This document shows positions 14,310 through 47,846 of a stretch of DNA of 64,000 nt, piece by piece (position 1 is the first letter of the stretch; every line of letters starts with the position of its first letter). Origin of the DNA: Methyloceanibacter superfactus (GTDB lineage: Bacteria > Pseudomonadota > Alphaproteobacteria > Rhizobiales > Methyloligellaceae); the NCBI RefSeq assembly GCF_001723305.1, contig NZ_LPWF01000026.1, positions 1 through 64,000 on the forward strand, written 5' to 3'. The notes under the pieces are model-generated. The model was not told where the DNA came from. It did no database searches and worked only from the letters and a program-made list of their open reading frames with translations. A program made the translations under genes and the position numbers.

Positions 14310-14669
<360 letters not shown>

Positions 14670-14686
14670 GAGGGGGAGATTTGAAG

Positions 14687-16027
14687 ATGACGACCCTTGC
14701 CAAATATCTATTCGGCGTGGTCGCAGCACTTGTACTGCTTGCGCTTTACCACATCGATCCGGCGCTCGCGCAGGAAGCCCCAGAGGCCCTTGCGGAAGTC
14801 GCCGAGGAGACTGCAAAGCTCGATACGGGCGACACGGCGTGGATGCTCACATCCACGGCTATCGTCCTGATGATGACCATTCCTGGCCTCGCCCTCTTCT
14901 ATGGCGGCTTGGTGCGGAAGAAGAACATCCTCACTCTAGTAATGCAGTGCTTCGCGATCACCTGCCTCATCACCATCGTGTGGCTGGTCGCGGGCTACTC
15001 GCTGGCCTTCACTGACGGCGGTGGGTTGAACGCCTATGTCGGCGGCCTGTCCAAGGCATTCCTCAGTGGGGTGGGCAAAGATACGCTGTCGGGCACGATC
15101 CCCGAGAGTGTGTTCTTCACCTTCCAGCTGACCTTCGCCATCATCACGCCGGCCCTCATCGTCGGCGCGTTCGCCGATCGCATGAAGTTCTCGGCGATGG
15201 TGGTGTTCATGGTCCTGTGGTCGCTGGTGGTCTATTCGCCGATCACCCATTGGGTGTGGGGCGGCGGCTTCCTGTCGGAGGCTGGCGTGCTCGACTTCGC
15301 CGGTGGCACGGTGGTGCATATCAACGCCGGTGTCGCCGGTCTGGTCTGCGCCATCTTCCTTGGCAAGCGCTTCGGGTACGGCACCGAGAACATGGCGCCG
15401 TATAACCTGGTCTACAGCGTGATCGGTGCCTCGCTTCTGTGGGTCGGCTGGTTCGGCTTCAACGCCGGTTCTGCCGTCGCCGCCAACGAGAGCGCGGGTA
15501 TGGCCATGGCCGTGACGCAGGTTGCTACGGCGGCTGCGGCACTCGGCTGGATGTTCGTGGAGTGGCTCGTGCACAAGAAGCCGAGCGTCCTGGGTATCAT
15601 CTCGGGCGCAGTGGCGGGTCTTGTGGCGATCACACCGGCCTCGGGTTTTGTCGATCCGATGGGCGCGCTGTGGATCGGTATCGCCTCTGGCGTGATCTGC
15701 TACTTCATGTCGACCACCGTCAAGAAAGCCATCGGCTACGATGACTCGCTCGACGTGTTCGGCATCCACGGCGTGGGCGGCATCGTCGGCGCCATCCTGA
15801 CCGGCGTGTTCGCCGTCGAAGCGATCGGCGGTACGCCCGGTCTCTTGGAAGGCAATGGCGGTCAGGTTCTGACCCAGGTCTGGGGCATCCTCGCCACCAT
15901 CGTGTGGGCCGCGGTCGCCACGTTCGTCATCCTGATCATCACCAATATCATCATTGGCGTGAGGGTGAGCGAGGCGGTCGAGGTCGAGGGTCTCGACATC
16001 AACCTGCATGGCGAGGTGGTCCAGTAG
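14687..16027 (+). CDS. amtB: Ammonium transporter AmtB
   Basis: 446 residues from ATG 14687, preceded by AGGGGGAG at a good distance (an in-frame TTG at 14681 lies too close). A cleavable signal segment ending near PALAQE is followed by eleven membrane helices, starting DTAWMLTSTAIVLMMTIPGL and ALFYGGLVRKKN. The ammonium-channel landmarks are seen: the first pore His region VYSPITHWVWGGGFL with GGTVVHINAGVAGL, and the second in DVFGIHGVGGIVGA. The channel conducts NH3/NH4+ inward and is gated by GlnK. Confidence 0.96.
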   Translation: MTTLAKYLFGVVAALVLLALYHIDPALAQEAPEALAEVAEETAKLDTGDTAWMLTSTAIVLMMTIPGLALFYGGLVRKKNILTLVMQCFAITCLITIVWLVAGYSLAFTDGGGLNAYVGGLSKAFLSGVGKDTLSGTIPESVFFTFQLTFAIITPALIVGAFADRMKFSAMVVFMVLWSLVVYSPITHWVWGGGFLSEAGVLDFAGGTVVHINAGVAGLVCAIFLGKRFGYGTENMAPYNLVYSVIGASLLWVGWFGFNAGSAVAANESAGMAMAVTQVATAAAALGWMFVEWLVHKKPSVLGIISGAVAGLVAITPASGFVDPMGALWIGIASGVICYFMSTTVKKAIGYDDSLDVFGIHGVGGIVGAILTGVFAVEAIGGTPGLLEGNGGQVLTQVWGILATIVWAAVATFVILIITNIIIGVRVSEAVEVEGLDINLHGEVVQ

Positions 16028-38968: not shown

Positions 38969-41335
38969 TCAGCTCGCAAAGGCGAGGGCGGTGCCGGCGG
39001 CGCGGCCGATGCCGAGCATAGGCGGCCGTGCGGCATGATCGAGCCAGGGGCTCCACGGGTCGGGCGCGATGAGCCCCCCGCTCTTCCACACCGGCACGAT
39101 GTGCCCCTCCGCCGTCATCTCGCCGACAATGGCCGGCTTGTGCAGATGGTGGTTCTTCAAGTCCATGGCGACCTCGTAGCCGCTCGGCGCCTTGAGGCGC
39201 AGTCCGGCCAAACGGCGGCGGACCTCGTCGACCTCGACGGACCCACCGAGCTTGACCGCTTCCTTCCACATGTTGAAGCCGATCCAGGTGGCCTCCATGG
39301 GATCGTCGGTCATCACGTTCGGCCGACCGCAGAACTTCTGCCAGGATTTCACGAAGGCGCGATTCGACGCATTGTCGATCTCGTGCAGATAGCTCCAGCA
39401 GGCGAGATGACCGGCGACTTCCGGTCCGGCGATGGCCGGCAGCTCGCTCTCGCCGATGGAGAGCGTCATCACCGGTACGCTGCCGGCGGTGATGCCTTGC
39501 TTCGCCAGCTCGCGATAGAGATACACATTGGCGTCGCCGCTCACCGTGGTGATGACACCCGCGTCGCCGCGCGCCCCGAAGCGCCGGATCGCGGCGACCG
39601 TGCCGGCCCAATCCTTGTGACCGAAGGGCGTGTAAACCTCGGCGACCGCGCCGCCGCAGATGCCGTCCGCCTCGAGATAGGCCTTGAGGATGGTGTTGGT
39701 GGTGCGCGAATAGACCGTGTCGGTGCCGAGCAGGAAGAAGCGCTTTCGGCCGCGGCGACGCAAGTAATCCACCGCGGGGATGGCCTGCTGCGCCGGCGTC
39801 CCGCCCGTGTAGAAGATGTTGGCCGATTCCTCCTCGCCTTCATATTGGCTCGGATAGAAGAGCAGCCCGTTCTGGCTCTCGACGACGGGCAGCACCTCCT
39901 TGCGTGAGGCGGACGTCCAGCACCCGAAGATCGCCGCCACCTTGTGCTCGGCAAGCAGCTCATGCGCCGCGCCGCCATAGGCACGCGGATCGGAGCGCGG
40001 GTCCATGATCGCCGCCTCGAGCGGACGGCCCAGCAGTCCGCCGTCCTCGTTGGCTTTCTCGATGAGCATGACCAGTAGATCCTGCAACGGCCGTTCGCTC
40101 GCGGTCATGGTGCCGGACAGCGAATGCAGGATGCCGAGCTTGATGGCGCCGTGATCGAGCTCGCCGAAATAGGTATCGACGCGAGTGACGAGACCGCCCG
40201 CCTTGCTGACCAATGCCTCCGCCGTGCCGAGCATGGAGGCGCCCGCGCGATCCACATGGCCAACGGCGGTGCGCAGATCCGGCAGCGTGCCGGCGACTTG
40301 CTCGGCGACCTGCGAGGCGCGGCAGGCGATGGCGTCGAGCTCTTGAGTCTGCTGCTCGAACACGCCGCGCAATCTGGCGTCCGCCTCGTTAATCTCGCCG
40401 ACACTTGCATGCACATGCTTGAGCGCGCCGGCGGTGCGCTCCACCGCCTGCTGAATGTCATCGACCTGGCTGGTGATGTCGTCGGTGGCCGTGGCGGTCT
40501 GAGCTGCAAGCGCCTTGACCTCGCCGGCGACGACCGCGAAGCCCTGGCCTGCGGCGCCGGCACGCGCGGCCTCGATGGCGGCGTTGAGCGCAAGCAGCGA
40601 TGTTTGCCGCGCCACGTTCTGGATCAGGCCCACAACCTCGCCGATGCGTGCGGCAGCCATGGACAGGCCGCGCATGGTCTCGTCGGCAGAAGCGAGATCG
40701 GTCATCGCGCGGCTGCTCGCGTCGCGCGAGGCGCCAATGTCGCCGGCCGACTGATCGATGGACCGCAGGATGCCGCGCGCCGAGCGCGCAATGGCGGCCA
40801 CGTCCTCGGACGCCGTATGGGCCGCGTCGGACGCGTTCCCCACCGTGCCATGCATGGCCTGGTTGCGCTCCTCCAAATCGGCGGCGGTCTGGCCGATCCA
40901 GGCGCTGCCGTCGGTGAAGGCCTTGGTGACCTCATCGACGGCACCGCGGAAGCGGCGGGTGATGAACTTCCGGCTGGCGAGATGCAGCCGGGCCTCGGCC
41001 TCGTGGCGGCGCTGATCGACGATCGCCGCGTCCGCCTCGATCACCGCGGCGCGCAGGGTCTCGGCGGCGCCGGCAAGCTCCGAGAGTGGGCCCTTGGGTT
41101 GCTTGGGAACGATGGCGTAGCGGTCGCCGCCGGCGATCTTGGCGACCACGGCGCCGAGGCGGCGCAAGCGATGCTCGATGTGACCAGTGGCGAGGAGACC
41201 GGACAGGCCACCGGCGACCAAGCCGACGAGCGGCCCGGCCAAGGCGGTCGCGGCGGCCGTCACCGCACAGGCGGCCAGCACGGGCACGGCCACGAAGCGG
41301 CTCGGCAGATTCTTGTTCTTGTCGTAGCGACTCAT
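38969..41335 (-). CDS. Chemoreceptor (MCP) fused to a C-terminal UrtA-like substrate-binding domain
   Basis: 788 residues with an unusual order. A hydrophobic hairpin (about 14-50) is flanked by basic residues on both sides (MSRYDKNKN before, HIEHRLRRLG after), so both ends should face the cytoplasm. A HAMP-like and coiled-coil stretch leads to an MCP signalling domain, with its hairpin tip at about 229-280 (IQNVARQTSLLALNAAIEAA, then GFAVVAGEVKALAAQTA). From about 398 to the end is a type 1 periplasmic-binding-protein domain like UrtA (IKLGILHSLSGTMTASERPL, GLLFYPSQYEGEEESANIFY, PMEATWIGFNMWKEAVKLGG). UrtA-like domains bind urea or short amides. Nothing suggests export of the domain. No che or urt genes are adjacent. 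Confidence 0.88.
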   Translation of the reverse strand: MSRYDKNKNLPSRFVAVPVLAACAVTAAATALAGPLVGLVAGGLSGLLATGHIEHRLRRLGAVVAKIAGGDRYAIVPKQPKGPLSELAGAAETLRAAVIEADAAIVDQRRHEAEARLHLASRKFITRRFRGAVDEVTKAFTDGSAWIGQTAADLEERNQAMHGTVGNASDAAHTASEDVAAIARSARGILRSIDQSAGDIGASRDASSRAMTDLASADETMRGLSMAAARIGEVVGLIQNVARQTSLLALNAAIEAARAGAAGQGFAVVAGEVKALAAQTATATDDITSQVDDIQQAVERTAGALKHVHASVGEINEADARLRGVFEQQTQELDAIACRASQVAEQVAGTLPDLRTAVGHVDRAGASMLGTAEALVSKAGGLVTRVDTYFGELDHGAIKLGILHSLSGTMTASERPLQDLLVMLIEKANEDGGLLGRPLEAAIMDPRSDPRAYGGAAHELLAEHKVAAIFGCWTSASRKEVLPVVESQNGLLFYPSQYEGEEESANIFYTGGTPAQQAIPAVDYLRRRGRKRFFLLGTDTVYSRTTNTILKAYLEADGICGGAVAEVYTPFGHKDWAGTVAAIRRFGARGDAGVITTVSGDANVYLYRELAKQGITAGSVPVMTLSIGESELPAIAGPEVAGHLACWSYLHEIDNASNRAFVKSWQKFCGRPNVMTDDPMEATWIGFNMWKEAVKLGGSVEVDEVRRRLAGLRLKAPSGYEVAMDLKNHHLHKPAIVGEMTAEGHIVPVWKSGGLIAPDPWSPWLDHAARPPMLGIGRAAGTALAFAS

Positions 41336-46404: not shown

Positions 46405-47235
46405 ATGCTGCGCGCCTGCGTCATCGGTTGGCCGGTCGAGCATTCGCGCTCACCCATCATCCATGGCTATTGGCTGGCCGCGTACGGCATCGACGGCGCC
46501 TACGAAAAAGAGGCGGTGCGCCCCGAAGATTTCGCGGCGTTTGTCCAGACCCTGGGTGAGCGCGGCTATGTGGGGGCCAATGTGACCCTGCCCCACAAGG
46601 AAGCCGCCTTGCGTGCGGCGCGCTCGACGGACGCGGCGGCGATCGCCATGGGCGCGGCCAACACGCTGTGGCTCGACGCCGAGGGCGTCCTTCATGCGGC
46701 CAATACCGACGCTACGGCTTCTCCAATCTCGACGCCCAAGCGCCGCAATGGAACGAGGGGATGGGCGCGGTCCCTTGTGCTCGGTGCCGGCGGCGCGGCA
46801 CGGGCGATCCTTTACGGCCTCCTTGCCGCTGGTGTGCCCAAGATCCTGCTGGCCAACCGCACCCGCGCCCGGGCCGACAGCCTGGCCAAGCTGTTCGGGC
46901 CGAAGGTTGAGGCGATCGATTGGGAGGAGCGGGAGCCGGCGCTCGCTGGCTGCTCGCTCCTCGTCAACACCACGAGCCTCGGCATGACCGGCCAGGGGCC
47001 ACTCGTCATCGACCTATCGGCATTGCCTCCGGACGCTGTGGTCTCGGACCTCGTCTACAATCCGCTGGAGACGGACCTCCTGGCGGCCGCGCGGGCCCGG
47101 GGCCTCACGGCCGTGGACGGGCTCGGCATGCTGCTGCACCAGGCGGTGCCTGGGTTCGAGCGCTGGTTCGGCCTGCGGCCCGAGGTGTCGCCGGATTTGA
47201 GGGCGCGTGTGGCGGCCACGCTGGAGGCCTCGTGA
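46405..47235 (+). CDS. aroE: Shikimate dehydrogenase (internal frame-scrambled stretch)
   Basis: About 277 residues. The catalytic region is seen in CVIGWPVEHSRSPIIHGYWL and ANVTLPHKEAALRAA (Lys), the NADP motif in LVLGAGGAARAILYGLLAAG, and the end in GLGMLLHQAVPGFERWFG. Between 46711 and 46774 three single-base losses (g46711, gggg 46757-46760, ccc 46772-46774) cancel. Repairing them gives NTDGYGFSNLDAQAPQWNEG, the normal substrate-binding region, instead of the nonsense now read. The stop overlaps the coaE start by one base. Confidence 0.9.
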   Translation: MLRACVIGWPVEHSRSPIIHGYWLAAYGIDGAYEKEAVRPEDFAAFVQTLGERGYVGANVTLPHKEAALRAARSTDAAAIAMGAANTLWLDAEGVLHAANTDATASPISTPKRRNGTRGWARSLVLGAGGAARAILYGLLAAGVPKILLANRTRARADSLAKLFGPKVEAIDWEEREPALAGCSLLVNTTSLGMTGQGPLVIDLSALPPDAVVSDLVYNPLETDLLAAARARGLTAVDGLGMLLHQAVPGFERWFGLRPEVSPDLRARVAATLEAS

Positions 47236-47846
47236 TGCTCGTGATCGGGCTCACCGGCGGCATGGGCATGGGCAAGACGTCGGCTGCGGCCCATTTCAAG
47301 GCCCGAGGTGTCGACGTGTTCGATGCCGACGCTACGTGCATCATCTCTACGAGGGCGAGGCGGTCGAGGTCATCGAGGCGGCTTTTCCCGGCACCACGCA
47401 CGACGGTCGGGTGGACCGGGCGCTGCTCGCCAAAGAGGTATCGAGGCACCCCGACCGGTTGCGGGCGTGGAGGCTATCGTTCATCCGATGGTGGTTGCGG
47501 CCGAAATCGATTTTCTCCGCGACCAGGAGAGAGCAGGGGCCGCGCTCGCGGTGCTGGAGATCCCGCTCCTGTTCGAGACGGGCGCCGAGTCCCGCACGGA
47601 CGTGACCGTCGCGCTGAGCGCGCCCGACGCGGTGCAGCGGGAGCGCGTGCTGGCGCGCCCCGGCATGACGAAAGAGAAATACGAGGCGCTGCGGGCGCGC
47701 AGCTCAGCGACGCGGAACGGCGCGCGCGGGCCGACTACGTTGTGGACAGCGGCACGACCATGGAAAACATGCACGCGCAGCTCGATACACTGATCGAATC
47801 GCTGCAAGATCGTGACGGTCAGGTCATGGAGCGATTGCGTCACTGA
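47235..47846 (+). CDS. coaE: Dephospho-CoA kinase (three apparent frameshifts)
   Basis: About 204 residues. The P-loop MLVIGLTGGMGMGKTSAAAH and DVFDAD are in the first frame, VHHLYEGEAVEVIEAAFPGT in the second, EAIVHPMVVAAEIDFLRDQE and LAVLEIPLLFETGAESRTDV in the third, and AQLSDAERRARADYVVDSGT back in the first. The three losses (47335, 47463-47465 and 47700) are each mended by one C or G. This last enzyme of CoA synthesis is essential, so it is probably intact in the organism. Confidence 0.85.
   Translation: MLVIGLTGGMGMGKTSAAAHFKARGVDVFDADATCIISTRARRSRSSRRLFPAPRTTVGWTGRCSPKRYRGTPTGCGRGGYRSSDGGCGRNRFSPRPGESRGRARGAGDPAPVRDGRRVPHGRDRRAERARRGAAGARAGAPRHDEREIRGAAGAQLSDAERRARADYVVDSGTTMENMHAQLDTLIESLQDRDGQVMERLRH

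Follow-up and report, generated by a model that had tools for sequence, protein, structure and literature searches.

The window analysed here, 64,000 nucleotides of Methyloceanibacter superfactus DNA, encodes a chemoreceptor in which a type 1 binding domain stands behind the signalling hairpin of an MCP. The protein is a real and recurrent variant that joins two known kinds, the MCP and the UrtA/AmiC family. As the explanation of the whole we favour, with moderate confidence, an internal sensor of a small amide-like molecule, carried on a hairpin-anchored MCP that would feed a non-flagellar and possibly CtrA-linked Che pathway.

The receptor is laid out in the window as follows.

38969..41335, minus strand: whole receptor gene, 788 codons plus stop with an ATG start; intact orthologs in the genomes G020 and G021
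41183..41299, minus strand: membrane hairpin, residues 13-51, with basic residues on both flanks, from hydropathy and low-confidence AlphaFold2 helices (13-33 and 35-68)
40967..41182, minus strand: HAMP-like segment, residues 52-123, with a GDRYA..P motif conserved in the family; named from its position and helix-loop-helix pattern
40157..40966, minus strand: coiled-coil MCP signalling hairpin, residues 124-393, with the tip ARQTSLLALNAAIEAARAG near residue 251; Pfam MCPsignal covers 207-362
39047..40144, minus strand: UrtA/AmiC-type type 1 binding domain (Peripla_BP_5), residues 398-763, starting about four residues after the coiled coil
39716..39718, minus strand: codon of Thr540, at the position of UrtA Tyr190, which hydrogen-bonds the urea oxygen; Thr or Ser in four of four close orthologs
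39539..39541, minus strand: codon of Ser599, at the position of UrtA Asn246, which hydrogen-bonds the urea nitrogen, from the pocket comparison
38972..39046, minus strand: C-terminal tail, residues 764-788, poorly conserved in the ortholog alignment

The order of hairpin, MCP tip and binding domain given in the initial annotation of this DNA was confirmed by Pfam and hydropathy. MCPsignal matches the receptor with an E-value of 4e-27 (95.6 bits; cut-off 34.6), and the tip residues N251, E255 and R258 are kept in the orthologs. The Peripla_BP_5 match (residues 398-763; E 2e-127; 425.7 bits against a cut-off of 27) spans profile positions 1-359 of 363. Against the NCBIfam UrtA model TIGR03407 the receptor reaches 437.5 bits, under the cut-off of 492.75; a stand-alone UrtA (L014) scores 569.8 bits in comparison. 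Pfam gave no HAMP match in the receptor up to E 1, the segment's position and helix-loop-helix pattern being compatible with one, and a TlpD-type zinc-binding C-terminal domain was not found. The neighbours in the window are rho, a fatty-acid hydroxylase gene and a DUF255/thioredoxin-like gene; these are only housekeeping genes and offer no functional clue. At a distance of 24 kb (14331-16024, plus strand) a PII gene adjoins one for an ammonium transporter, with no link to the receptor seen.

A misassembly joining two genes near residue 390, which the initial annotation had raised against its own reading, was not borne out. Such an artefact is ruled out by the syntenic, nearly gapless orthologs in G020 and G021, two genomes of the sister genus, and by the copy in Methyloceanibacter marginalis. 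The two orthologs can be aligned from end to end at 60% identity; the only gap before residue 765 is one residue long, and no indel occurs from the HAMP-like segment to 765. Since this stretch has stayed free of indels at such a level of identity, the spacing of coiled coil and linker is constrained. In both genomes the receptor stands between rho and the DUF255/thioredoxin-like gene; relative to this arrangement, the fatty-acid hydroxylase gene is interposed in the window only. The M. marginalis copy is 77% identical and carries one frameshift in its draft sequence. Both halves of the protein are under purifying selection (dN about 0.13-0.39 against dS of 0.49-1.23; dN/dS about 0.25-0.4), and the binding domain is the slower-evolving half, with 66-69% identity compared with 58-59% for the MCP half.

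Among the matches listed in an order-level search of 397 genomes, only four fusions were found (the window, G020, G021 and M. marginalis), scoring above 811 bits as opposed to at most 492 for stand-alone UrtAs, and most of the other Methyloceanibacter genomes searched lack the receptor. A class-level search of 385 genomes added three more (G446, G569 and G449), and a phylum-level search of 398 genomes revealed no further fusion among the matches listed. The same domain order occurs on large plasmids of Azospirillum brasilense, A. argentinense and a third Azospirillum. The earlier statement that no receptor with this order had been described holds in one respect, as we found no account of an MCP followed by Peripla_BP_5 in the literature, but the architecture is not unique, recurring in several other alphaproteobacterial lineages including Azospirillum. 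These relatives are uncharacterised as far as we could see. Two long open frames considered as hidden fusions (L079 and L095) are ordinary exported UrtAs in chance long frames, and the Niveispirillum match H5 likewise proved to be an ordinary exported UrtA. In the phage collection, only generic MCP similarity to the G446 query was detected.

The binding domains of the window receptor, its orthologs, G446, G569 and G449 form one clade (support 100/100) beside alphaproteobacterial UrtA; the branching order within it is unsure owing to long branches, that of G449 above all. The MCP half of G446 ranks first in its genome against the window MCP (240 vs 169 bits). A common MCP backbone for all fusions was rejected, the MCP halves of G569 and G449 not being specially related to that of the window; this suggests that within the first fusion group the MCP part was exchanged or diverged fast. 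The fused receptor of G446 (L150, 7083-9485) sits among housekeeping genes, which from their sequence we take to be ftsZ and lpxC on one flank, with bamD and recN on the opposite flank.

The Azospirillum binding domain shares 75% of its residues with the binding protein encoded in the same operon and no more than 49% with any other sequence compared, and a single origin of all fusions was rejected (p-AU 1.2e-6). Judged from these comparisons, the Azospirillum fusion arose independently, from the operon's own binding protein, and thus an UrtA/FmdD-type sensor was placed behind an MCP at least twice. In A. brasilense (plasmid L166, 2436-11777) the operon encodes an FmdD-like binding protein, a urtBCDE-like transporter, the fusion, an FmdA formamidase and an FmdB-like zinc ribbon, and is a self-contained set for uptake, sensing and breakdown. 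On the A. argentinense plasmid (L165, 7560-8000) the N-terminal hairpin of the fusion lies in a different frame from the rest, unlike in L166.

Structure was predicted with AlphaFold2 from a shallow alignment, and both models are of low confidence, with a mean pLDDT of 60 for the binding domain alone and 55 for the other. The binding-domain model finds its best fold matches in the Caldicellulosiruptor urea-binding protein, cyanobacterial UrtA and AmiC, in agreement with the sequence and with the UrtA kinship first proposed. AmiC belongs to the same fold family (phmmer E 9.2e-47; Foldseek E 1.3e-20 with the low-confidence model); its entries among the best matches (1pea, 1qnl and 1qo0) are titled as amide receptor or negative regulator of the amidase operon.

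The urea pocket of Prochlorococcus UrtA is lined by nine residues, of which Ser122, Gln144, Tyr190 and Asn246 form hydrogen bonds; mutating any of these four markedly reduces or abolishes urea binding (PMC10392092). Of the stand-alone UrtAs compared, 66 of 66 keep eight of the nine pocket positions, the four hydrogen-bonding side chains included, together with a Tyr at position 192. The window receptor fits the UrtA family at seven of the nine: it retains Trp473, Ser475, Tyr494, Gln497, Glu499 and Ser626, all of them invariant, and has Tyr542 at UrtA position 192. The equivalents of Ser122 and Gln144 are kept, and the other two hydrogen-bonding side chains are replaced, Tyr190 by Thr540 and Asn246 by Ser599. 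In the close orthologs the first of these positions is Thr or Ser and the second is Ser or Asn, and in G449 the pair is Thr and Gly. The complete urea pocket is kept in the fused receptors of G446 and G569. The Azospirillum pocket shows Phe for Gln144 and Val for Asn246, as does the neighbouring transporter binding protein.

Urea, the ligand first proposed, is not supported by this comparison. It is unlikely for the window receptor because the Tyr and Asn that hold it are replaced, and because searches of the window genome found neither a second UrtA nor FmdA, and no urease scoring above the cut-off; our best guess is therefore some other small polar compound, perhaps a short amide or a substituted urea. 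A link to amide metabolism in this organism is unsupported. The two altered contact residues could also mean that the domain reads the state of a partner protein, or that it no longer binds a ligand and instead mediates dimerisation or docking, and AmiC, of the same family, does act via a protein partner (1qo0 is titled AmiC complexed with AmiR). We consider this improbable: the retained pocket residues are invariant, and the slower evolution of the domain relative to the MCP half argues for a kept ligand site.

Two MCPs are encoded in the window genome, this receptor and a frame-split one (G000:C7:32616-33061; L076), which is broken at the tip and appears to be a hairpin without a periplasmic sensor. 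The single Che cluster comprises CheA with a C-terminal receiver, CheW, CheY, CheB and CheR, and adjoins genes for a CtrA-type regulator and ChpT. Its counterpart in G021, a single-contig genome, is intact, and there both CtrA and ChpT score above their NCBIfam thresholds. In the window genome (G000:C30:76000-95000; L080) CheA, parted between Hpt and the rest, CheB and CheR are each frame-split, all intact in G021 (L082). Compared with its ortholog in L078, a coaE-like (dephospho-CoA kinase) gene in the window (47235-47703, plus strand) is broken across three frames, which suggests indel errors in the draft. The splits in the che genes may reflect either sequencing error or decay.

FliG (FliG_C) went undetected in seven of seven Methyloceanibacter and sister-genus genomes, namely the window genome, that of a methylotroph, and six relatives, three of them single-contig; an identical search found it in G446, G569, G449 and four control genomes. 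Methyloceanibacter caenitepidi and Methyloligella are entered as lacking flagella in a published table (PMC7996495); the absence of flagella is thus read from one marker gene and from this table for related species. On both grounds, swimming chemotaxis is not a likely output in this lineage, and a role in flagellar chemotaxis is unsupported although CheA and CheW are present. The CheA pathway probably controls something other than swimming, its output and target being our weakest inference, and the gene neighbourhood suggests a link to CtrA.

With the pathway in view, the initial annotation's proposal that the receptor senses intracellular urea and signals nitrogen status, here with swimming as the output, can be weighed as a whole. 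UrtA is indeed the closest family (437 bits, TIGR03407), seven of nine pocket positions fit it, and the distant fusions of G446 and G569 keep the whole urea pocket in genomes that have FliG; for these two the proposal may hold. For the window receptor we think it quite unlikely, given the exchanges of Tyr190 for Thr and Asn246 for Ser, a score under the UrtA cut-off, and a genome in which no urease above cut-off, no second UrtA and no FliG was found. About as unlikely is a decaying gene within a decaying Che system of a non-motile lineage. The frameshift in M. marginalis, the split CheA, CheB, CheR and second MCP and the patchy occurrence in Methyloceanibacter would all suit decay; dN/dS of about 0.25-0.4 in both halves and the intact che genes of single-contig G021 speak against it, and the conserved coaE-like gene, split likewise, points to assembly indels.

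Hydropathy shows two N-terminal peaks only (residues 14-32 and 31-49), and the basic residues claimed for both sides of the hairpin are present, MSRYDKNKNLPSR on one flank and HIEHRLRR on the other. No later membrane helix or signal peptide precedes the binding domain, the highest 19-residue mean outside residues 1-110 being 1.14; a signal peptide or third membrane segment at this point was accordingly rejected. In the G449 fusion, which has the same order of MCP and binding domain, no membrane hairpin was detected in any upstream frame. In Azospirillum the linker is recognisable as the former N-terminus of the transporter's binding protein, now without the hydrophobic core of the signal peptide. 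Because the MCP tip has to contact CheA inside the cell and is not separated from the binding domain by any hydrophobic segment, that domain is almost certainly cytoplasmic, as the initial annotation had it. A periplasmic domain, reached by an unusual topology or a two-domain crossing, would match the known Peripla_BP_5 members, nearly all of which are exported, but the missing hydrophobic segment, the G449 protein with no membrane helix detected and the lost signal core in Azospirillum make it extremely improbable.

The favoured internal sensor would work as follows. A two-helix hairpin would anchor the receptor, leaving almost nothing outside the cell. The Venus-flytrap sensor would follow the signalling hairpin, at the membrane-proximal end of the coiled coil and beside the HAMP-like segment. 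In the low-confidence model the last coiled-coil helix runs from 265 to 393 and the first binding-domain strand from 398 to 403, which puts the linker at about four residues. A small internal molecule would close the flytrap domain; since so short and presumably rigid a joint connects them, closure would push or twist the last coiled-coil helix, and the change would travel to the tip and set CheA activity. Both this signal transmission and the ligand class are inferred, and the gap-free length conservation from the HAMP-like segment to the binding domain fits rigid coupling. More speculatively, and as a possibility we rate below even, the Che pathway beside chpT and ctrA would be run by receptors without external sensors, one internalised nutrient-binding protein reporting an internal amide- or urea-like metabolite, and would constitute a metabolic or developmental switch instead of chemotaxis.

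Chemoreceptors are known to have transporter binding proteins as partners in the periplasm. In these fusions such a protein appears to have been brought inside the cell and shifted to the opposite end of the receptor, independently on at least two occasions. In Azospirillum the fusion stands beside a transporter and a formamidase, presumably for one shared substrate; the same flytrap fold would be read outside by transport and inside by signalling, and a direct test is possible. The Methyloceanibacter receptor would name the input of a Che pathway in bacteria without a flagellar motor, where the role of such a pathway is an open question.

Among known proteins, UrtA (TIGR03407; PDB 7s6e, 7s6f, 8hic and 8tg1) shares fold and family with the binding domain over its full length and is the best match in both sequence and fold, down to the seven fitting pocket positions. 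The receptor differs in lacking a signal peptide, lying outside a urt operon and behind an MCP, scoring under the family cut-off, and having Tyr190 and Asn246 replaced.

AmiC is a regulatory amide receptor that works in the cytoplasm, for the amidase operon. The Pseudomonas aeruginosa protein (1pea, 1qnl, 1qo0) is of the same family, and the stretches GC..S..RK and DP..DP.RY are common to both. Whereas AmiC is a free-standing anti-activator of AmiR, the window protein is a receptor with a fused domain, and the AmiC pocket differs, with Tyr, Pro, Val and Thr at UrtA positions 120, 144, 246 and 274. Neither an AmiR-type partner nor an amidase is among the receptor's neighbours (rho, fatty-acid hydroxylase, DUF255), in a genome where FmdA was not found.

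The Azospirillum fusion (L165, L166) has the same domain order, with an N-terminal hairpin in L166, and differs in its independent derivation from an FmdD-like binding protein and its place inside a urt/fmd operon. TlpD is a soluble chemoreceptor with a zinc-binding C-terminal domain; like the window receptor it has an intracellular sensor at the C-terminal end of the signalling hairpin, but the sensor fold is another one and the window receptor is membrane-anchored. Aer-type receptors combine a hairpin anchor with a cytoplasmic PAS sensor and thus share the arrangement of a hairpin with an internal sensor. Their PAS domain, however, precedes the hairpin, whereas the sensor of the window receptor follows the signalling tip.
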